Assembly (NCBI GenBank): GCA_017987115.1
Contig: JAGNUG010000030.1
Span: 1-36,103, forward strand
Direction of reading: 5' to 3'
DNA from: Flavobacteriales bacterium
GTDB taxonomy: Bacteria; Bacteroidota; Bacteroidia; Flavobacteriales_F; PHOS-HE28
Length of the DNA: 36,103 bases
A program made the translations under genes and the position numbers. Position 1 is the first letter of the stretch. Every line of letters starts with the position of its first letter. This document shows positions 4,450 through 33,696 of this stretch, piece by piece. The notes beneath the pieces are model-generated. The model was not told the DNA's origin, searched no databases, and was given only the letters and a program-made list of their open reading frames with translations.

Positions 4450-5967
4450 ATGCGCTCTCTGACATTCTTGGCCCTATTGTTCTGTGCAAGCTTTATGCAG
4501 GCACAGGAGAACGCGGGTTCCGAGGTTGGAGGCGTAGAGATCTTGAACGCGGATGTTTGGGAATTCGATCAGGCGCGTGCGCAAGGGGCGCAGGTCCTGA
4601 AAGGCAATGTGCGCTTCAAACACGGCAAGGCGATAATGAAATGTGACAGCGCTTACCTGTACGAGGACGAACGTGTACGGGCTATGGGACGTGTGAACAT
4701 CAACCAAGGCGATACGTTGTTCGTGGATGGCGATGTTCTGGAATATGAGAGCAATGCCAGAATGGCCCGCTTGGAAGGCAACGTTCATCTGCGCAATGGC
4801 GATATGGAATTGACAACGCCGGCCTTGGACTATGATATGAACGCAAAACGTGCTTTGTACACGAGCGGCGGTCGCATCATCAGCAAAAAGGAGAACAATA
4901 CACTCACCAGTGATGTCGGCCTGTACTTGGCAGATACGCGTTCTTTCATTTTCAGTCGGAATGTTCTGCTGGATCATCCGGAGCATACGATCACAAGTGA
5001 TACCATGCACTACGGAACAAGTAGCGGCATTGCTGAATTCTTTGGACCCACGCAGATATTACAGGATAGCACGATCATCACTACACTTCGCGGCACTTAC
5101 GACACGCGGAACGAACGAGCAAGATTCACAAAACGATCCAGCATACTAAGTGGTGGCCGATTGCTCGAGGGCGATAGTTTGCATTATGATAGACCAACAG
5201 GGATCGGGCGCGCTTGGGGAAACGTTGCTGTTACGGATACTGCAAGTGATATGATCGTGACCGGGGATGAAGGTTTTTACGACGAGAGCAACGAGCGGTC
5301 AATGATAACAGGCCATGCCGAACTAGTGATCCTGATGGATGGAGATAGCCTATTCCTTCACGGCGACTCCATCTTCACAGTGCCCGATAGCGCGGGAAAG
5401 CGCGTTCTAGCTCATCGCAATGTGCGTTTCTTCAAAAGTGATATGCAAGGCGTTTGTGACACACTTATCTACTCGGATGCGGACAGCTTGATCCGCATGT
5501 TCAATGCTCCGGTTCTATGGAGCGGATCGGATCAGATCACTGGAGATCATATCCGAATTGCGATGAAGGACGGACAGGCGCATCGACTGTTCGTGGAGGA
5601 CAATGCATTCCTCGTTTCCCAGGCGGATAGCGTGCATTTCGATCAAGTAGCAGGCACCACGATGACCGGCTACTTCGTAAACAATGAGTTGGACCGGATC
5701 CTTACCGAAGGCAATGCACGCACGGTCTATTTTGCGCGTGAGGAAAAAGATGGGATCGAGTCGATCATCGGTGTGAACCGAGCTGATTGCAGCAGGATCT
5801 CGGTAAAACTCGCGGAAGGCAAAGTGGGTACCGTTACATTCATGGAACAACCGGATGCCATCCTCTACCCTATTGATAAAGCTCCAACGAATGAGCTACG
5901 CATGGAAGGGTCGGACTGGCGTGATGATGAACGGCCGATGGATCGGCAAGCGATCTTTGATCAGTGA
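4450..5967 (+). CDS. OstA-like protein (LptA/LptD N-terminal-like, LPS transport)
   Basis: The 505-residue protein has a signal peptide (MRSLTFLALLFCASFMQA) and repeated OstA/LptA-type beta-jellyroll units. Several are visible as recurring patterns: VLKGNVRFKHGKAIMKCDSA, then MARLEGNVHLRNGDMELTTP, and later RAWGNVAVTDTASDMIVTGDE. OstA-like domains carry LPS across the periplasm in the Lpt bridge, and Bacteroidota have a long OstA-like protein of this size besides LptD. It is most likely the periplasmic LptA-equivalent or a longer relative. LptD is encoded at 16371, not next to it. Its last 7 bases overlap, tail to tail, the end of the beta-helix gene on the opposite strand. Confidence 0.85.
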   Translation: MRSLTFLALLFCASFMQAQENAGSEVGGVEILNADVWEFDQARAQGAQVLKGNVRFKHGKAIMKCDSAYLYEDERVRAMGRVNINQGDTLFVDGDVLEYESNARMARLEGNVHLRNGDMELTTPALDYDMNAKRALYTSGGRIISKKENNTLTSDVGLYLADTRSFIFSRNVLLDHPEHTITSDTMHYGTSSGIAEFFGPTQILQDSTIITTLRGTYDTRNERARFTKRSSILSGGRLLEGDSLHYDRPTGIGRAWGNVAVTDTASDMIVTGDEGFYDESNERSMITGHAELVILMDGDSLFLHGDSIFTVPDSAGKRVLAHRNVRFFKSDMQGVCDTLIYSDADSLIRMFNAPVLWSGSDQITGDHIRIAMKDGQAHRLFVEDNAFLVSQADSVHFDQVAGTTMTGYFVNNELDRILTEGNARTVYFAREEKDGIESIIGVNRADCSRISVKLAEGKVGTVTFMEQPDAILYPIDKAPTNELRMEGSDWRDDERPMDRQAIFDQ

Positions 5968-8120
5968 TCCTTTCCCCCGAAATCGGAAATGATCTTCGGG
6001 TCGAGCGTCTCCTTCTCGTCTATCCCGGAATGGTCATCAACTGCGCTTTCCTGCTTGTTATCCGTGAATTCGTTAGGATACCGGATCACGCGTGCACCAC
6101 CTTGGATCGGATCGATCCGCTGCAACTTGAACACAGTTCCATTGCTACTGAACCTGTTTCCGGATGCATGGATCAAAGCGAGATCGGACCCTTTCACAAC
6201 GGTGTTGTTACCATCGAACTCACATTCAAGCAGCAATAACTGCCCCGCTGAACCAACGGTGATCGCTTCATTGGTCATTCCTGTAAAGTTGCAATCCTGG
6301 ATCATCGAACGTTCGCCATTGATCAGCACACCGCTACCGACAGTACTTCTACGCGAACTGCGGAAATTACATTCACGAACCTCACTACGCGCATGCTCCA
6401 ACGCAAGCAATGGACCGGTTCCACCATAGAAATTGACGTCGACCAACGTTACATGACCACCACTGATCTCCAGACCATGACCCTTAGCAGCCTCTATCTC
6501 GCAGCCGTCGAATGTAGCATTGATCGCTCCACGGATCGATACTTGATCACCCGCTGCCCCGCCGCCGCTGATGTACAAACCTGAAACGTGGCATAGTGCT
6601 TTCCCATCCCCTCGCATAGCTATGCCCTTGAATGGTTGGGCATCATTTGCGGCGCGTATGAACACGGGGCGTAAACGCGAACCTCGAATATGCAAAGGGC
6701 CCTGCACCATGATCCCACTTCCAGGAGCCATTGTGATCCGAGCACCTTCATTGATCACCAGCGCTTTTCCAGGAGGAAGCACGACATCATCCTTTAAGTA
6801 ATATTTCCCTCTGTTCAGGACCAATGTATCGCCTTGTGTTCTTGCTGAGAAGAACCACCGTGCAACCTCTTCGATCGGTGTTGTGCCTTCCAGCGCTTGA
6901 ACCAGAACCGGCCCGGCACCTGAGGTGTTACCAATGAAGGTGGCACGTCCAGGACCTGCGACCCAATGTGCATTATGATACGCCAGTGGATCACCGTTCT
7001 CCAACCGATCTTCCAGCAATACATTGGCAATACGGTTTGCAGTTGCACGTGCCCACGCCAGATCACCTTTCTCCGCAAGCAACGGTAGCCACGTATTATC
7101 CATCGCAGCGAACCTTTCCTTCATACGCCACCTTAGATCGTTCAATTCTTCGCGTCGTTCGATCAAAGATGTTCGGAATTCCTCCTGCTGTAACAATGCA
7201 CTTACCGGATCCATCGTGAATGCTGACGGGCCATTTCCATATTCTGGAACGCGCTGGTAAACAGGTGAAACTTTTCCTGTAGTACGTCGATGGATGTATG
7301 GAACCGTTCCGTTGACCGTTGGATCGCCGTTCTCCAGCCAACGCATCAACAACCAAGAAACGGAGGCATCCTTATCCAATACGCTGTTCAGGGCTTCTGT
7401 GTCACCGTTCGCCATTTCAGTATATAGCGTAGACCACAAAGCCACCAGCTCCGGCCCCATCAACGGATCGCTGAACGTGTTCGGGAACATGCCTTGTGGA
7501 CAATTCGGGTCCGCAGAAGCATTGAACAACGTAGCATCAGCTAATCGCTTCTTGGCCAAGAATGCACGACCCAGATCTTCTTCTTTCTGATAGATCCCTA
7601 GATCCTTACCACAAGCAATGATGCGAACGAAAGAGACCTCTGCAACAGGCAATTCGAGTTCAGTAGCAAGAACCTCTAAATAAACCGATCGGATATTCTG
7701 GATCGTGGCAGGCACCAAGTTGATCCGGTGCTGTTGTTCGAACGGTCGGCTTTCCGGGAATCGGATCGAGAATGAACCTGGCACAGGTCCTAGATGGGCC
7801 ACTTCTGCCTGTGAACTATAATGTTCCGACGTGAATTCTATACTACGCCATTGATCGTCGTAGTCAGTGACCGGACAATGCCCGGTTGCCCCACCGATGC
7901 GGAGTACAGGAAGACCCTGTGCTCTTGGATCCTCAAGTAGAGTGCCTTTCAGGTTAACGAACATGCGGACCTCATCAGCCTTTATGCCAAATGGCCACTT
8001 GCCAGTAAGCAGCTTAGATGAGGCAAGTGCGAATACGCCAACGATCAATCCCACCGGAATCATCAGACCCAGGAACCAGGCTTGTGGACGCGTTGATGCT
8101 CTGCGGACCACACGCCTCAT
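5961..8120 (-). CDS. Membrane-anchored degenerate CotH-like protein with beta-helix
   Basis: The 719-residue protein has a basic N-terminus and one membrane segment (about 14-36), so the rest is probably extracytoplasmic. Residues about 50-300 resemble a CotH spore-coat kinase fold. The clearest part is GKDLGIYQKEEDLGRAFL (171-188), matching the family's NGxxxGxYxxxE strand-helix. The segment VSWLLMRWLENGDPTVNG (254-271) matches the helix before the active-site loop. Where CotH kinases have a WDxD metal motif, this protein has SPVYQRVPEYG (285-295), so catalysis is probably lost. Residues about 433-690 form a right-handed beta-helix with many short turns (FDGCEIEAAKGHGLEISGG and similar). It is the last of three genes joined by 4-bp ATGA overlaps. 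Family assignment rests on pattern, not on a profile search. Confidence 0.65.
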   Translation of the reverse strand: MRRVVRRASTRPQAWFLGLMIPVGLIVGVFALASSKLLTGKWPFGIKADEVRMFVNLKGTLLEDPRAQGLPVLRIGGATGHCPVTDYDDQWRSIEFTSEHYSSQAEVAHLGPVPGSFSIRFPESRPFEQQHRINLVPATIQNIRSVYLEVLATELELPVAEVSFVRIIACGKDLGIYQKEEDLGRAFLAKKRLADATLFNASADPNCPQGMFPNTFSDPLMGPELVALWSTLYTEMANGDTEALNSVLDKDASVSWLLMRWLENGDPTVNGTVPYIHRRTTGKVSPVYQRVPEYGNGPSAFTMDPVSALLQQEEFRTSLIERREELNDLRWRMKERFAAMDNTWLPLLAEKGDLAWARATANRIANVLLEDRLENGDPLAYHNAHWVAGPGRATFIGNTSGAGPVLVQALEGTTPIEEVARWFFSARTQGDTLVLNRGKYYLKDDVVLPPGKALVINEGARITMAPGSGIMVQGPLHIRGSRLRPVFIRAANDAQPFKGIAMRGDGKALCHVSGLYISGGGAAGDQVSIRGAINATFDGCEIEAAKGHGLEISGGHVTLVDVNFYGGTGPLLALEHARSEVRECNFRSSRRSTVGSGVLINGERSMIQDCNFTGMTNEAITVGSAGQLLLLECEFDGNNTVVKGSDLALIHASGNRFSSNGTVFKLQRIDPIQGGARVIRYPNEFTDNKQESAVDDHSGIDEKETLDPKIISDFGGKDH

Positions 8121-9313
8121 TGCGATGAATTTTCAGTGCCTCTCCAAAAGGCCACGGCTTTATCACGGAACGTAGCTGATGTTCGCACTGCTCGTCGGAT
8201 CGAATAACCGTAAGTATCAGCATCCCCAACAATGATGTGCGCATGTTTCGATCGATCACGCAAAAGTGATGGGATCAATCCGGCTTCGGCCTGCCGCCAT
8301 TTATCCAAGAACAGATCATTGTTGAGGAGATGGGTCTTCGCCTCATTGATGTACTGCTCTTTACGCGCAGTCCATTCCGGTTCGTTGGCAACCAATTGTA
8401 ACAATTGCGACATCGGCGAGATCAGCGTAGTATCCGAGTTGCTATCTAACCTATCCTCCATTATGCTTGCACTGCACATTACCGGGTAGAACGTGCCACT
8501 TCGCGAACCAAGAGCCCAAGCGTGTTCAGCACTGTTCATCCGAAGAACCTCAACCGCTGCGCTATATCGGAGAAATGCATCAACATCCAACGTCATCGCG
8601 ATCGAATCACGACGGGCATAAGCGGTCAGTAACGTATCGTTCAGCGCTCTCTTCAATGAACCAGCACGTGCTTCGGACAAGCTATCTGAAGTAGGAAACA
8701 CAGCTTGTTGTCCAATGCCCGAAACGGCAATATCCCTTGTTGAAAGGCCACGGGCTTGCTCCAGGTCAGGCCCTATGATCTCCCGGATCTCCATAACGCC
8801 CAATTCCTCTCCATTGATCCGCAGAACGAACAATCCATCATAAGGAACAACCACACCCATTTCACCAGCTACCCATAAAGCCATATGATCCTGTAACATA
8901 TCGGCGGAAGAAGGGTTCCGGATCTCGATACGGTGGAACGGCAAACTGATCGGAGGTGCTTTGAACGCAACTCGAAATGACCTTTTCTTATGATCAGAAG
9001 GTGGACCATCGAATGAAAACACCGCTTTGCATTCGCTTCCGGCCAACATAAAAGATCCATTCACATCACCTCCAACTTTACTTGCTAGAACCGCGGCAAA
9101 TTCATTGGGATCAAAATTCACTTCCACAAACGGCAACCTGGACGCCGCAGGTTGTTCCGCAAAACCATCAAGCGCGGTCATTGCCGCCGAACTGCTCGCA
9201 ATGGTCAATGCTTTACTTGGACCTAGGAGCACACCGAATATCAGGAATGAGATCGCTATCAATGCAACGATGACCAACCCGACCGCAGTACTGCCCTGTG
9301 GTACGCGGTTCAT
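8117..9313 (-). CDS. Membrane-anchored degenerate CotH-like protein
   Basis: The 398-residue protein has one N-terminal membrane segment (about 10-32) and a predicted extracytoplasmic body. The segment GLFVLRINGEELGVMEIREI resembles the CotH-family core strand pair ending in the conserved Glu. FHRIEIRNPSSADMLQDHMA resembles the family's KLxNxxxDxSxLR stretch but lacks the lysine. In the expected WDxD position there is FYPVMCSASIMED, so the metal-binding Asp pair is missing. It looks like a shorter paralogue of the downstream gene without the beta-helix. Both junctions in the operon are ATGA overlaps, so translation is probably coupled. It could instead be an unrelated secreted domain; a structure prediction would settle this. 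Confidence 0.6.
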   Translation of the reverse strand: MNRVPQGSTAVGLVIVALIAISFLIFGVLLGPSKALTIASSSAAMTALDGFAEQPAASRLPFVEVNFDPNEFAAVLASKVGGDVNGSFMLAGSECKAVFSFDGPPSDHKKRSFRVAFKAPPISLPFHRIEIRNPSSADMLQDHMALWVAGEMGVVVPYDGLFVLRINGEELGVMEIREIIGPDLEQARGLSTRDIAVSGIGQQAVFPTSDSLSEARAGSLKRALNDTLLTAYARRDSIAMTLDVDAFLRYSAAVEVLRMNSAEHAWALGSRSGTFYPVMCSASIMEDRLDSNSDTTLISPMSQLLQLVANEPEWTARKEQYINEAKTHLLNNDLFLDKWRQAEAGLIPSLLRDRSKHAHIIVGDADTYGYSIRRAVRTSATFRDKAVAFWRGTENSSQ

Positions 9314-9717
9314 CGGCCCTGTCGTGTGCTAAGTAGTAGGACCAATGTTGTGGCCAAGGTCATTACCATGGCACTTAAGTTCAGACCAAGCCCAAGTAAG
9401 CATGCAATAATGATCACAGGAAGCCAAATTCCCTTGGGCTGGGTAGAGCGACTTAAGAAGCCAGCAACAATTACTGCGACCGCTATGATGACAGCCGCCC
9501 AGATATGATCACGAAAATGATGCAAAAGGAGCAAGACTCCATATCCTCCAAGCAACAATGCCCAAGGTACCATTGGTCCACGATCCGCAGGACGGAATCC
9601 ACGATTCCAACTAAAACCGATGAGCACCAATGCTACGAACAGCATGGCGAATAACGTGACCAATTCCACCCAACCGTGAAAGAGAGCACCTAGCCAAGGA
9701 TCAGTATCTGGAGACAT
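9310..9717 (-). CDS. Small multi-pass membrane protein, unrecognised
   Basis: The 135-residue product is very hydrophobic, with about four membrane segments (roughly 14-35, 50-67, 71-88 and 97-127) joined by short loops such as WNRGFRPADRGP and SRSTQPKG. No family is recognised. It opens the operon whose next two genes encode anchored CotH-like proteins, each overlapping its neighbour by 4 bp. A membrane partner or scaffold for those proteins is a reasonable guess from context alone. I looked for DUF4956, a membrane family often linked to CotH kinases elsewhere, but its C-terminal soluble part is absent here. Confidence 0.7.
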   Translation of the reverse strand: MSPDTDPWLGALFHGWVELVTLFAMLFVALVLIGFSWNRGFRPADRGPMVPWALLLGGYGVLLLLHHFRDHIWAAVIIAVAVIVAGFLSRSTQPKGIWLPVIIIACLLGLGLNLSAMVMTLATTLVLLLSTRQGR

Positions 9718-9798: not shown

Positions 9799-9927
9799 AT
9801 GGGAACTAAACCAGATGTTGTGATCCACTGTTGGATCTATGCTCCTGGAAAAAATAGTATCGGTGTTGAACCAACGGGTCGTATTGCGTATGGCACGCTA
9901 TGCCGAAACCTTGGCCACTTCACATGA
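9799..9927 (+). CDS. Possible 42-residue small ORF
   Basis: An ATG-to-TGA frame in the 202-bp gap between two minus-strand genes has a natural-looking composition (starts MGTKPDVVIHCWIYAPGKN, ends CRNLGHFT). A TAGTTTTC box lies 10 nt upstream, closer than the other putative -7 boxes. It overlaps the 3' end of the opposite gene by 8 bp. No homologue is recognised, and chance is a serious alternative. Confidence 0.15.
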   Translation: MGTKPDVVIHCWIYAPGKNSIGVEPTGRIAYGTLCRNLGHFT

Positions 9928-10441
9928 AGCGCGCCATCCAATTGGTGCGCAATTGCACTCGGAAGTTCTCACGTAGATCACCCAATGTCGATACTTGATC
10001 GTCATATACGATCGTATCGCCTGTAATTACACCTTCCGCTATGAGCTCGGGAAGCTCTTGCAATCTACAGCTCCTGATCACACCTTCCTGTTCGAATACA
10101 ACGACCATTCGATCAGTGAGCATCATGTTCAGCGTGTATTCCAGATCCTTGATGAATCCCACGCTCTTGTCAAGACTACATCCGGATGCTTTGGCTTGTT
10201 CCTCATCCACAGCAATAACAACGAACCGATCGTATAGCACATCCACAGTTGCGTCCAATGGTGCACCATGGGCCGCCCATGCACTCGTGAAGGAATCACC
10301 TTGTTCGCGTACCAGTTTCTGTTCTGCGCTGCTAAGATTACGAGCCGATTTATAAACCCATATTCGCGCGGTCGATGCCATATCGGTCAATCGCTTTGAG
10401 ATCAAGGGGGCAGTCTCAGTAGCTTCCATTGTGATCGTCAT
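9920..10441 (-). CDS. Bacteroidota conserved protein, often misnamed 'ABC transporter ATPase'
   Basis: The 173-residue product belongs to a small conserved Bacteroidota family recognised by ARIWVYKSARNLSSAEQ near the N-terminus, a FTSAWAAHGAPLDA segment, the YDRFVVIAVDEEQAKASGC strand with following LDKSVGFIK, and LTDRMVVVFE. Database entries often call it 'ABC transporter ATPase', but no Walker A or B motif is present, so that name is not supported. Function unknown; probably cytoplasmic. The open frame begins at 10441, but Met21 (codon at 10379-10381) sits just before the conserved core and may be the true start. In related genomes this family is commonly found near the Fe-S genes that lie upstream here, from which a toxin-antitoxin island now separates it. 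Confidence 0.8.
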   Translation of the reverse strand: MTITMEATETAPLISKRLTDMASTARIWVYKSARNLSSAEQKLVREQGDSFTSAWAAHGAPLDATVDVLYDRFVVIAVDEEQAKASGCSLDKSVGFIKDLEYTLNMMLTDRMVVVFEQEGVIRSCRLQELPELIAEGVITGDTIVYDDQVSTLGDLRENFRVQLRTNWMARFM

Positions 10442-28662: not shown

Positions 28663-29880
28663 CTACTTCACCACGAATTTTCGGATCGCGCTGCCAACTC
28701 GTGCGACATACATTCCAGGATCGAACCCGGATATATCGATCAAAACCGTACCATTCCTAACGGCCGCGGTGCCAACAAGCCGAAGTTGGGCATCGAACAA
28801 TTGCACCTGTGTTCGATCCAGGATCGGTGATGTCATTACAACATTCAATTCGGTGTTCGCCGGGTTCGGATAGAGCGAGAACTCAACCGATGAGTGTTCT
28901 TCTTCAATGCCGATCCGTACTCCGGATATCTTGCTCAATCCCGAACTTGTGGTCACCCAAACTGCGTCATCGGCATCCACAGCGAGTCGGCGCACATTGG
29001 GACCAGCAAGCCCATTGGAAAGCTCGTATTGTGCCCAATCGTTCCCATCGTACATGGAAACGCCACCTTCGGTCACGAGGTAATCCACGTATACACCGGC
29101 CCATACAAGACCTTGTGAGTCGAGTACAACATCCGTAACAGGATTCAAGGTATCAGGTGCAGGAAGAATGAATGGGCGCGTATGGTTTCCGGTAAATTGA
29201 TCATTGGCATCGAATGTTGAGATCCCCTTGGCTGTAGCCACCCACTTGTTCTGAGCGCCATCTATCGCGATGGACCGTATCTTATTATTGATCAATCCAT
29301 CCGCTTCAACGATGGATGTGAACGAGCTACCATCATAGACCTTAATGCCTGCAAGTCCCGTTCCTAACCAGACGTCACCATCATCAGCAAATGCGATGTA
29401 TGTTGTTCCACCGAATGGAATATCAGGACTTCCAAATGCTGTAAACACGCCATTGCTGTAAACTGTAGCCCCATTGATCGTCGCTAACCAGATATCACCG
29501 TTAGGCGCCTGCTTGATGTTATTGACCTGGTTATCACTGAGCCCATCAGCAGTGGAATAGGTCACGTAATCCGTACCATCAAAAACACTAACACCGTTGT
29601 CAGTTCCTGCCCAAACGTCTCCATTGTCCATTACGGCGATGGCCATGACATTACTGCTAACTAAACCTGGATGCGTTATCGGTGTATGGTTCTCCGCATT
29701 AACCCCATCGAACTTGATCACACCAGCCTGACTAGCCAACCAGACATTACCGGAACCATCGATGGCCACATCGCGGAGGTCATTTGAAGGTAGCCCAGTG
29801 TTCGTGTTGTAGTTCGTAATTGTTTGTGCGGAAAGTGACGCACTGAGGCAAAGGGTTAGCAATGAGATAACGTTCTTCAT
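28663..29880 (-). CDS. Secreted beta-propeller (two-component-regulator-type) T9SS protein
   Basis: The 405-residue protein has a signal peptide (MKNVISLLTLCLSASLSA), about six propeller repeats of the regulator type (NVWLASQAGVIKFDG, GDVWAGTDNGVSVFDG, GDIWLATINGATVYSNG, and others) and a T9SS type A domain (LYPNPANTEL, LFDAQLRLV, PGMYVARV, ending IRKFVVK). Such propellers are sensor parts in hybrid histidine kinases. Here no kinase is attached, so it is likely a surface binding protein. It is the last gene of a three-gene operon and overlaps the CotH gene by 4 bp (ATGA). Confidence 0.9.
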   Translation of the reverse strand: MKNVISLLTLCLSASLSAQTITNYNTNTGLPSNDLRDVAIDGSGNVWLASQAGVIKFDGVNAENHTPITHPGLVSSNVMAIAVMDNGDVWAGTDNGVSVFDGTDYVTYSTADGLSDNQVNNIKQAPNGDIWLATINGATVYSNGVFTAFGSPDIPFGGTTYIAFADDGDVWLGTGLAGIKVYDGSSFTSIVEADGLINNKIRSIAIDGAQNKWVATAKGISTFDANDQFTGNHTRPFILPAPDTLNPVTDVVLDSQGLVWAGVYVDYLVTEGGVSMYDGNDWAQYELSNGLAGPNVRRLAVDADDAVWVTTSSGLSKISGVRIGIEEEHSSVEFSLYPNPANTELNVVMTSPILDRTQVQLFDAQLRLVGTAAVRNGTVLIDISGFDPGMYVARVGSAIRKFVVK

Positions 29881-32150
29881 TCTGACAAGATAAAGGTTTG
29901 ATGTGAGGTCTTATTCGTTGTGCGTACTTCAAGGACATAAGCACCGGGTGTGAGACCAAGAGTTCCGATACGTACCGCTTGATCACCACTCAGCACAAAG
30001 TCCGGCGTTATCCGTTTTCCATCAGGCGAAACGATCACCATTTCATAGGGCTCGTTCCCATCCAGGATCAACGTAATGTCACCGTTGGTTGGATTCGGGA
30101 ATAGACGAAGAAAACGATCCAGGTCATCGATACCTTCAGGTGAATTCCATGCCTTGAATGTTGGGTAGAGTTCACGGAAAACACCTGTTCCATTGGGATA
30201 CCGTCCCGTGGAGGATATTTCATATTGGTTACCAAAATTGACCTGATCGATAACGGTCGAATCCGCATATCCTAACATCACCGTCTCCCCTGTTACTTCC
30301 AACCTGAAGTTGGCATGATCCTCACCTTGACCCGGTTGACCATCGGCCCAGATGATCATGTATTCGGCGGGTTGCAAGATGCGCGATGGCAACGCCCATT
30401 TGGTTGGATCCGCTGCATCATCGCTGAGGTACAGCCCTGCTGTGGAACGTGGATCCATGCTCCGGTTGTACAGTTCTATCCAATCATCTGGATCTCCATT
30501 CTCGTCAACTACCGTCCCGCTGTTAAGTGCCATGAACTCATTGATCACCAGATCACCAGGGTTCATTTGTGTTTCAATCGTGTGGAATTCATATGCCGCT
30601 CGCACAGGTTCAAAAACACCAGCTGTTCCGTTCTCCGCATAGATGTAGTAGTGGATCACACTGGAACTTGCAGTGATCACTGCTCCGAAGACACCATCCC
30701 CGGCCGCACCATCGCTATTCAACCCATCATCCTTCAGTTCAACATGCTCGAATAGACCATTCGCTGATGTCTTGAACGCAAGAAAAGCACTGTCCGCCCC
30801 AACGATGGTCGCAGTAATAGCGACCTCCTCATCAACTGTGATCTCTATAGGAAAATGTGCAACATCGTTGACGATGGGTTGGTTCGTAAAACCCGGGTAA
30901 TCGTACAGGTAGACCGTACGTTGATCTATCAGTTCAGCGATCCCCGGATAGTCGATCAGGTCAACGAAAGTCTCATCCAAATTATCAAGGAACGCTTGGT
31001 AGCTATAGAATTTATTGGTATCAGCCTGAACGTAAGGGGCAATTATGTCCCGCAGATCCTCAGCCCTGTTGTAATAACTGTGATCCGCGAAATTCTCATC
31101 CACGATCGTCCGCATGTGCGCCAGATACATTCGCTGGTAGGTCGGGTTCTCGAACAGATTCCGCATCAACGGCCTTAGTTGAACCGATACACTGTTCAGG
31201 TGTTCCAACGGGTCGATCGTGATGGCCTGTGCAATGCTGAAACCATTCCAATACGTTGAAGCATCGGTCAATCGAAAACTCGCAAACGACATGTTCATGT
31301 CCCAGAGTATCGGATTCCAACGCGCATTATCATCCATGTACATGTAATAGTTCTGCGCGTACCCAACATAACTGTCGAAATTGATCAATGCGTAGTTGAA
31401 CGCATGCATCCAAAGTGTCCGATCCACGTTCAGGACCTCGTGAACATTCTCCGGATCATTATTCAAAACATCGATCAACGTGTACAACTCATCCCAACCT
31501 TCATCGGACTCCAATGAATAGAGGTCGAAATAATCGGCAATGTCCGTTCCCGGAGTATTGCTCAAGTTCGCATTTTCGCCATTGAGATCAACGGAAGCGG
31601 GATTCCCTTTCACGAACGGGTTGCCTCGGGAACCGAAATGAGTATCCACGAATTCCTTGCTCACATCCTCGATGTTCGTGTACAGGCCGACCAGGACATC
31701 ATTCACGTATACGTTGGCATAATTGGCCTGCGATGCCGGCATGTATTGTCGAGCGATCTCATAGGAAAGTACTTCACGCAAGAAGGATGGATCCTGGATC
31801 ACATTGCTCAGCTTCAGCTTTTCATAGCCTTGGTAGTTCTGGCCCGCGTGGACATGGTCCAATTTGATATTGAACGGATTCTTCTCACGGGAGGAACTGT
31901 ACGAGCTGAAGCCTTTGTACCGCACGCCGACATCAGGTATCGAGGTTCCATCAATGATGAGATCACCCTGCAGTCGTTCATCACCGGCCAGGTAAAGTGT
32001 ATCCAAGAGATCATTCCAGTTCGGCTCATCAAAGTATAATCTCACCTCTCGAACGGACCCAGGATCGTATAATCCTGCTTGTGCGTAAAGCCGCCCGTCT
32101 GGAATAGACGAAGTGAATAACGCCAATGCTATGGCAACGTAACGGATCAC
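29877..32150 (-). CDS. CotH kinase family protein with LTD domain, T9SS-secreted
   Basis: The 757-residue protein begins with a signal peptide (MIRYVAIALALFTSSI). The CotH kinase domain (about 30-400) is intact: the EKLKLSN strand with Lys (110-116), GLYTNIEDVSKEFV with Glu161, and WDMNMSF at 283-289 with the metal-binding Asp. CotH kinases phosphorylate secreted proteins using ATP or another donor. A lamin-tail domain (about 540-660, LVINEFMALNSG and PDDWIELYN) follows, then a T9SS domain (LFPNPTNGD, GAYVLEV). The start is GTG, one nt after the sulfotransferase-like stop. Unlike the two CotH-like proteins at 5961-9313, the catalytic motif is preserved. Confidence 0.93.
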   Translation of the reverse strand: MIRYVAIALALFTSSIPDGRLYAQAGLYDPGSVREVRLYFDEPNWNDLLDTLYLAGDERLQGDLIIDGTSIPDVGVRYKGFSSYSSSREKNPFNIKLDHVHAGQNYQGYEKLKLSNVIQDPSFLREVLSYEIARQYMPASQANYANVYVNDVLVGLYTNIEDVSKEFVDTHFGSRGNPFVKGNPASVDLNGENANLSNTPGTDIADYFDLYSLESDEGWDELYTLIDVLNNDPENVHEVLNVDRTLWMHAFNYALINFDSYVGYAQNYYMYMDDNARWNPILWDMNMSFASFRLTDASTYWNGFSIAQAITIDPLEHLNSVSVQLRPLMRNLFENPTYQRMYLAHMRTIVDENFADHSYYNRAEDLRDIIAPYVQADTNKFYSYQAFLDNLDETFVDLIDYPGIAELIDQRTVYLYDYPGFTNQPIVNDVAHFPIEITVDEEVAITATIVGADSAFLAFKTSANGLFEHVELKDDGLNSDGAAGDGVFGAVITASSSVIHYYIYAENGTAGVFEPVRAAYEFHTIETQMNPGDLVINEFMALNSGTVVDENGDPDDWIELYNRSMDPRSTAGLYLSDDAADPTKWALPSRILQPAEYMIIWADGQPGQGEDHANFRLEVTGETVMLGYADSTVIDQVNFGNQYEISSTGRYPNGTGVFRELYPTFKAWNSPEGIDDLDRFLRLFPNPTNGDITLILDGNEPYEMVIVSPDGKRITPDFVLSGDQAVRIGTLGLTPGAYVLEVRTTNKTSHQTFILSE

Positions 32151-32151
32151 G

Positions 32152-33696
32152 TTAGTGCTGAACTAAGATGCGCTTCATGACCCGTTTGCCAGAAACCAAT
32201 GTTACTTGCATGTAATAGATCCCTTCGGCTTGATCACTTAGATCAACTTGAAGTGTGTTGCGGACCGAACGGACCGAGCGACTTGTTCCATCCACGATCG
32301 TGATCAAAGTGACTTGGGAAGCGTCAATTCCACTCAGCACAAAAGCACCAGTTGATGGATTTGGATACGCCTCAATGGTCTCTGAGCTGATTTCAACCAC
32401 ATCCGTAGTAAGCGTACAGACATTCGCACCCAAAATAGCTATGATGCCAGGGTCAGCGCACAAATACCGGAAGCCTTTAGGCGGACTTGCATTGTATTGC
32501 CAAACGATGTTACCGATCTCGTCAACCTCGTACATGTACTCATCCGAAAGTGCGACGAAAATATTTCCGTTCGGCATTCGATCCGAAGCGCTTTGCCCAG
32601 CGGAGTTGGCAATACATACATGCCGCCAATCGTAAGTAATTGGACCAAAGGCGGTATTTGGTATGCGGTCATAGTTGTAACCGTTCAATGGAGGTTCTAT
32701 TGCATCAATGACCGTATTCCCGGTTGGCCCGCCTACGTTGTTCACGAACTGTAAATACCCTGCATTTGGACGACCATCCTTGATCCACCTTACATCATGC
32801 ACCGCTCCTGCAATGGTCTGTGTACCAGTTGTACCATAATTCGCTGGCTTACCCCAACGAAATAAAAAGTCACCACCCATTCCAGCATTTCCACCAGTAT
32901 GGCCTGCTGCTTCAGCTGTAGTAGTGCTATGGTCAATAACAAAGATCTCGCTAGCAAAGCGCGAACTGAATGCGATCTGATCCAGCGCCTCATTGTAATC
33001 GATACCGTTCACGTGGAACCAATCACCAGCACCACCACCAGGACCGCCACCACCTTGAACAACTACATTAATGTTCATGCGTTCCGGATGCTCTGCGATC
33101 GTCATGTAGTTCGGTTTGCTTGCATCAACGTATTGGATGAAACGATCAAGCATGTTCCATTCCCACACCACTTCTCCACCACTTCCATTCTGCTGAACCT
33201 CTATGATCCGTGTTGGCCATTTCGCAGAGTTCCCAGTATAACCAAGCGCTTGTAGTTGTGCATTGGTCTGAACGAACCAAGCCGTGAGCAATACATTACC
33301 ATTCGGCATTAAGCACATATCATGGTGTGTAACGTAATTCGAAGTGGAATAAACGAATTCCCAAACAAGCGCACCAGCTGGTGTGAACTCCTGGACCTTA
33401 CCTCCCACTGCTGCACCGTTCAATTGGTTACCCGCGTTCACTGCTCCTCTAACCAAATTCCCGTTCGGCTTTATGGCCATTGCATAGTTCGCATTCGAAG
33501 GCAACGACCAACTATGTGCAATTGCACCGCTCGCATCGATCAAATAGGCCGTACTCGAGTTCTGGTTGTTATACAACGCATAGCCATCGAATTGGGCTTG
33601 GCCAGCAATAACTGAAAGTGCACCGAAGAAAAACAAAGAAGCTCGCGAGAGCATTGAGCGCTGGTCAGCGAAATTCGAGTAAGGTGTTCTCTTCAT
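32152..33696 (-). CDS. Arylsulfotransferase-like (ASST family) T9SS protein
   Basis: The 514-residue protein has an N-terminal signal (the hydrophobic ASLFFFGALSVIAGQAQ; Met15, codon at 33652-33654, may be the start). An ASST-like six-bladed propeller (about 40-430) follows, with blades such as AYLIDASGAIAHSWSLP, KVQEFTPAGALVWEF, RIIEVQQNGSGGEVVWEW, HVNGIDYNEALDQIAFSSR and MYEVDEIGNIVWQY. His residues in THHDMCLMPNG and WFHVNGIDY resemble the central His of the family. A T9SS domain ends it (AYPNPSTGAFVL, EGIYYMQV, RILVQH). ASST enzymes move sulfate between phenols; whether this one is active is not shown. First gene of the operon. Confidence 0.88.
   Translation of the reverse strand: MKRTPYSNFADQRSMLSRASLFFFGALSVIAGQAQFDGYALYNNQNSSTAYLIDASGAIAHSWSLPSNANYAMAIKPNGNLVRGAVNAGNQLNGAAVGGKVQEFTPAGALVWEFVYSTSNYVTHHDMCLMPNGNVLLTAWFVQTNAQLQALGYTGNSAKWPTRIIEVQQNGSGGEVVWEWNMLDRFIQYVDASKPNYMTIAEHPERMNINVVVQGGGGPGGGAGDWFHVNGIDYNEALDQIAFSSRFASEIFVIDHSTTTAEAAGHTGGNAGMGGDFLFRWGKPANYGTTGTQTIAGAVHDVRWIKDGRPNAGYLQFVNNVGGPTGNTVIDAIEPPLNGYNYDRIPNTAFGPITYDWRHVCIANSAGQSASDRMPNGNIFVALSDEYMYEVDEIGNIVWQYNASPPKGFRYLCADPGIIAILGANVCTLTTDVVEISSETIEAYPNPSTGAFVLSGIDASQVTLITIVDGTSRSVRSVRNTLQVDLSDQAEGIYYMQVTLVSGKRVMKRILVQH

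Follow-up and report, generated by a model that had tools for sequence, protein, structure and literature searches.

An operon of a small membrane protein and two anchored CotH-fold proteins, conserved within one genus of Flavobacteriales

The CotH kinase family (PF08757) is represented by CotH of Bacillus subtilis, which is inactivated by substitutions of Asp228 and Asp251 (PMC7821199), and by the solved structures of B. cereus CotH, 5jd9 and 5jda. In a kinome survey, CotH and FAM20 fell into the same cluster (PMC9758233). Animals have pseudokinases that partner secreted kinases, such as Fam20A, which activates the secretory kinase Fam20C (PMC5413348), and we found no report of a pseudokinase partner of bacterial CotH in the open-licence literature. 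CotH also occurs in operons together with DUF4956 and VTC proteins, and in Gram-positives Pel clusters are accompanied by CotH, a polyphosphate polymerase, and DUF4956 (PMC7112168). For DUF4956-VTC operons, too, the open-licence literature yielded no assigned function.

Here we describe a locus that shares features with each of these systems. It lies in a stretch of 36,103 nucleotides from a genome of the Flavobacteriales (contig JAGNUG010000030.1; hereafter the window) and comprises genes for a small multi-pass membrane protein (M) and two anchored proteins (A and B). Both A and B are like CotH in fold, and the A orthologues are also like it in the residues aligned with the catalytic and metal-binding Asp. 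Unlike the described CotH proteins, however, they are membrane-anchored and encoded in an operon with a multi-pass protein, and A of the window and all copies of B lack the catalytic or WD residues. With the DUF4956-CotH-VTC operons, including those beside Pel clusters, the locus shares a multi-pass protein as the first gene and a full-length homologue of B, but M is not detectably a DUF4956 protein, VTC is missing, and a second CotH protein (A) has been added. In genomes with an intact A, A and B would resemble Fam20C and Fam20A in combining a putative atypical kinase of the secreted type with a catalytically dead paralogue, a likeness that we judge here at the level of sequence. The Fam20 pair is eukaryotic, B additionally carries a beta-helix, and pairing and activation of A and B are our proposal, so we use Fam20 as a model for how M-A-B may work and not as a claim of family membership. 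The beta-helix itself belongs to a common fold shared with right-handed beta-helix proteins (PF13229; AlgG/AlgE epimerase fold), though in B it is fused to a pseudokinase and we identified no catalytic site in it.

The M-A-B module is real and conserved within a single genus, which offers a natural series of genomes with a kinase and a pseudokinase, with both dead, with the pseudokinase alone, or with none of them. This series would make the roles of catalysis and scaffolding separable by comparison, and the module ties CotH/beta-helix proteins to the DUF4956-VTC operons.

Gene arrangement and fold

All three genes are encoded on the minus strand, i.e., M at 9310-9717 (135 aa), A at 8117-9313 (398 aa), and B at 5961-8120 (719 aa), and they are joined by ATGA stop/start overlaps at 9310-9313 (M/A) and 8117-8120 (A/B). 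By hydropathy, M has about 4-5 hydrophobic segments, while A and B each have a single one at the N-terminus. This layout agrees with an earlier interpretation made without database searches (the sequence-only reading), and the CotH-like motifs that it had quoted are indeed present in A and B. The 4-nt ATGA overlap between M and A is kept in 21/21 loci with all three genes, an overlap of 4-26 nt joins A and B at every locus where both were read on one contig, and the other five reading frames of A contain 7-28 stops. Chance is therefore not a reasonable explanation of this arrangement.

AlphaFold2 models of A (built with 13 orthologues; pLDDT 70) and B (built with 21 orthologues; pLDDT 81) bear out the suggestion that both proteins are CotH-like in structure. 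Residues 58-397 of A (8123-9142, minus strand) match 5jda with a Z-score of 24.5 over 305 residues (rmsd 3.5), and all rows after CotH in this search fall below Z 10. Residues 69-383 of B (6972-7916, minus strand) find their best kinase match in 5jd9 with a Z-score of 24.7 over 305 residues (rmsd 3.2). In Pfam, A and B of the window score 15.8 and 14.1 bits, i.e., below the CotH cut-off of 23.8 bits, and four intact A orthologues that we scored singly reach 34.7-57.6 bits. A profile of the A family finds solved CotH (5jd9/5jda) with an E-value of 1.1e-13 from its sequences only, pairing HIDQY with NFDGF and WD with WD. A thus belongs with the CotH kinases, and its paralogue B (hhalign probability of 97% between the two) is a pseudokinase fused to a beta-helix. 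This fusion, which had already been noticed, is supported by 42.4 bits in Pfam, well over the cut-off of that domain, and by a model in which residues 407-705 (6006-6902, minus strand) form a right-handed beta-helix whose best structural match is AlgG (Z 26; a common fold). An NCBIfam search of M, A, and B returned nothing useful.

Catalytic residues and distribution across the genus

Alignments with orthologues show that the catalytic residues are missing from both A and B in the window genome, as the sequence-only reading had proposed. The lost segment of A (about residues 258-281; 8471-8542, minus strand) reads RMNSAEHAW...FYPVMCS where orthologues have HxDQYHNQW...FYPxxWD. In B, the motif SPVYQR (7251-7268, minus strand) occupies the position of the metal-binding WD of CotH, and WD is absent from 31/31 full-length copies of this protein. 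A pair of pseudokinases is thus an apt description of the window genome but not of the general layout, because A is intact in 18 of the 21 genomes with the trio. These 18 proteins, among them the diverged orthologues of genomes G018 and G021, carry HxD(Q/N)(Y/F)H(N/D)Q followed by P(V/I)(F/L)WD and so keep both the catalytic Asp and the WD Asp, which we equate with Asp228 and Asp251 by spacing and not by direct alignment to B. subtilis CotH. The remaining three (window, G024, and G064) lack both residues and have also lost about 135 aa at the C-terminus, leaving proteins of 386-403 aa instead of 530-538 aa. The WDxD motif of solved CotH survives among the homologues in part: the WD Asp is intact at the aligned position in the 18 A orthologues but stands in WDxL, and no full-length copy of B has it. 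For A, this is one of the findings that the sequence-only reading had named as speaking against itself.

A is therefore probably a CotH kinase in most of the species that have it, though its kinase activity remains putative given WDxL in place of WDxD. Judged by these residues, a putative kinase and its dead paralogue are encoded together in the 18 genomes with an intact A, while the window genome is an exceptional state in which both CotH domains look dead and neither can be expected to catalyze anything.

M is present in 34 of the 45 genomes of the genus and was not found in the 64 other genera that we searched. B, whole or partial, accompanies it in all 34, of which 21 have M-A-B and 13 have M-B without A; in one further genome (G029), B is cut at the contig end. 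The gene order M-A-B hence recurs in relatives, though in one genus only. Scanning GTDB contigs with the single B sequence gave no match, and a scan with a B alignment gave 26 loci. Their MAGs carry the labels Flavobacteriales, Bacteroidetes, or Bacteroidota, with a single Chryseobacterium among them, and most of these loci lie on the very contigs of the genus genomes already found. The contig in the MAG labelled Chryseobacterium gleum (L167; CAMCAZ010000064.1) seems identical to one of genome G015 of this genus, and the label looks wrong. A search of 395 genomes of the phylum with the A profile found one weak match outside, which covers part of a 376-aa protein; the neighbours listed for this protein include nothing recognisable as M or B.

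The module is flanked on one side by a convergent OstA/LptA-like gene (4450-5967, plus strand) and on the other by a gene for a 173-aa protein (9920-10441, minus strand; cluster c4). In nearly every trio genome with a long enough contig, the LptA-like gene is found past B; G021 has it at the M end of the module. In three module-free genomes (G030, G005, and G013), c4 directly adjoins the LptA-like gene with gaps of 72, 20, and 21 nt, and no traces of M, A, or B are found between them. With this largely constant flank and the clean empty sites, M-A-B behaves as a discrete module whose position is fixed in most genomes, and the broad agreement of the gene trees fits vertical descent with repeated loss.

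Possible roles of the module

We consider it about evenly probable (ca. 0.5) that M-A-B forms an envelope complex of the inner membrane that faces the periplasm and in which the pseudokinase B would assist the kinase A much as Fam20A does Fam20C. In such a complex, the CotH-like domains of A and B would lie in the periplasm, the beta-helix of B may bind a polymer, either periplasmic or exported, B may scaffold or activate A, M may anchor or couple the pair, and A may phosphorylate a secreted protein or glycan in those species that have it intact. The role given to M is a guess because this protein has no detectable relative. A T9SS tail is missing from both A and B, which makes an inner-membrane anchor facing the periplasm likelier than the surface location suggested earlier and renders the latter doubtful. 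In the lineage of the window, where A is devoid of catalytic residues and the C-terminal domain, only a non-catalytic role in binding or scaffolding would be possible for M-A-B. The 13 genomes with M and B show that B is of use even where A is missing, which would not be expected of a pure activator, and this counts against the complex. More tentatively, one may extend the proposal to a kinase-pseudokinase complex of the bacterial periplasm, parallel to Fam20C and Fam20A, where a live CotH protein would be targeted and activated by a dead one fused to a polymer-binding beta-helix, with a scaffold that still works together with M in the several lineages where the kinase has been lost or is dead.

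A somewhat doubtful alternative takes both CotH domains as binding scaffolds with no need for catalysis, so that M and B would be the working unit, with a polymer-binding beta-helix on a dead kinase fold, and A an optional extra binder. The constant company of B with M, its lack of the WD Asp everywhere, and the absence of A from 13 genomes and its degeneration in three are all as expected from this alternative. However, it is hard to explain without catalysis why 18 orthologues of A, the diverged ones included, still have both Asp residues, and the loss of these residues coincides with a burst of evolutionary rate: in the A tree, the degenerate proteins sit on branches of 4.1-5.2 changes/site, where the median for end branches is 0.24. 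In the trees of M, B, and LptA, these three genomes have branches of 0.29-1.22 changes/site. Whether the three degenerate proteins go back to a single or to repeated loss is answered differently by different gene trees.

The same fast evolution, along with the missing motif and C-terminal domain, could mean that the operon is decaying in the window genome, with A becoming a pseudogene after loss of the kinase and the module-free relatives as the end state. The clean empty sites of those relatives would suit such a course, and the LptA-like gene of one of them (G030) is the most similar to that of the window among the genomes tested. Yet we find decay unlikely, since the frame of A in the window is intact over 398 codons despite about 4 changes per site, its model keeps the CotH fold, the ATGA joins on either side of it are exact, and the A proteins of G024 and G064 are in the same shortened state with intact frames. 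The intact frame and exact joins speak for continued production of A in the window species, though decay keeps some probability. An assembly error is an unlikely cause of the short A because three genomes are alike, the joins are neat, and one of the assemblies consists of 7 contigs.

Related operons and neighbouring genes

B aligns over the greater part of its length, 604 columns (hhalign probability of 99.8%), with CotH/beta-helix proteins of operons that we read as DUF4956-CotH-VTC in three other families (L132, L204, and L205), of which L132 was assigned by a Pfam run and the others by alignment or gene order. As we read this alignment, the position of the catalytic Asp is changed in those proteins as well, and CotH/beta-helix proteins may for that reason be catalytically altered in general. 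It is improbable, but in keeping with this homology and with the company of CotH, polyphosphate polymerase, and DUF4956 at Gram-positive Pel clusters, that the trio is a reshuffled operon of this type in which M replaces DUF4956 and the second CotH protein replaces VTC, serving the same polymer-linked pathway. Against this stands the lack of homology of M to DUF4956 or MgtC: a relationship had been surmised from the place of M in the operon and from visual inspection, but profile comparison was negative (probabilities of 0.05% and 0.3% for DUF4956). The trio also has no VTC gene, its flanks being the LptA-like gene and c4, and the window genome keeps DUF4956 and VTC elsewhere (G000:C50).

At that second site (L139, 6894-8311), DUF4956 and VTC are adjacent, with no CotH gene alongside in the stretch that we read. 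In L204 (4423-8539) and L205 (4258-8375), from two other families of the phylum, a DUF4956-like gene, a CotH/beta-helix gene, and a VTC-like gene share one order, and the operon of L204 adjoins genes resembling those for polysaccharide synthesis. The window genome also encodes an 828-aa anchored CotH/beta-helix protein with catalytic positions that look altered (L138, 630-4147; G000:C159), whose gene is followed by genes for a calcineurin-like phosphoesterase and for epimerase- and asparagine-synthetase-like proteins, in an order similar to that in G024 and G010.

The window itself contains a genuine CotH gene at 29877-32150, recognised as such from the start, that scores 146 bits in Pfam, keeps the motif WDMNMSF, and encodes a protein with a T9SS tail. 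It is the middle one of three consecutive genes for T9SS-tailed secreted proteins (28663-33696, minus strand), i.e., a propeller of the two-component-regulator type, the CotH protein with an additional lamin-tail domain, and an arylsulfotransferase-like protein, and the first two of these genes overlap by 4 nt.
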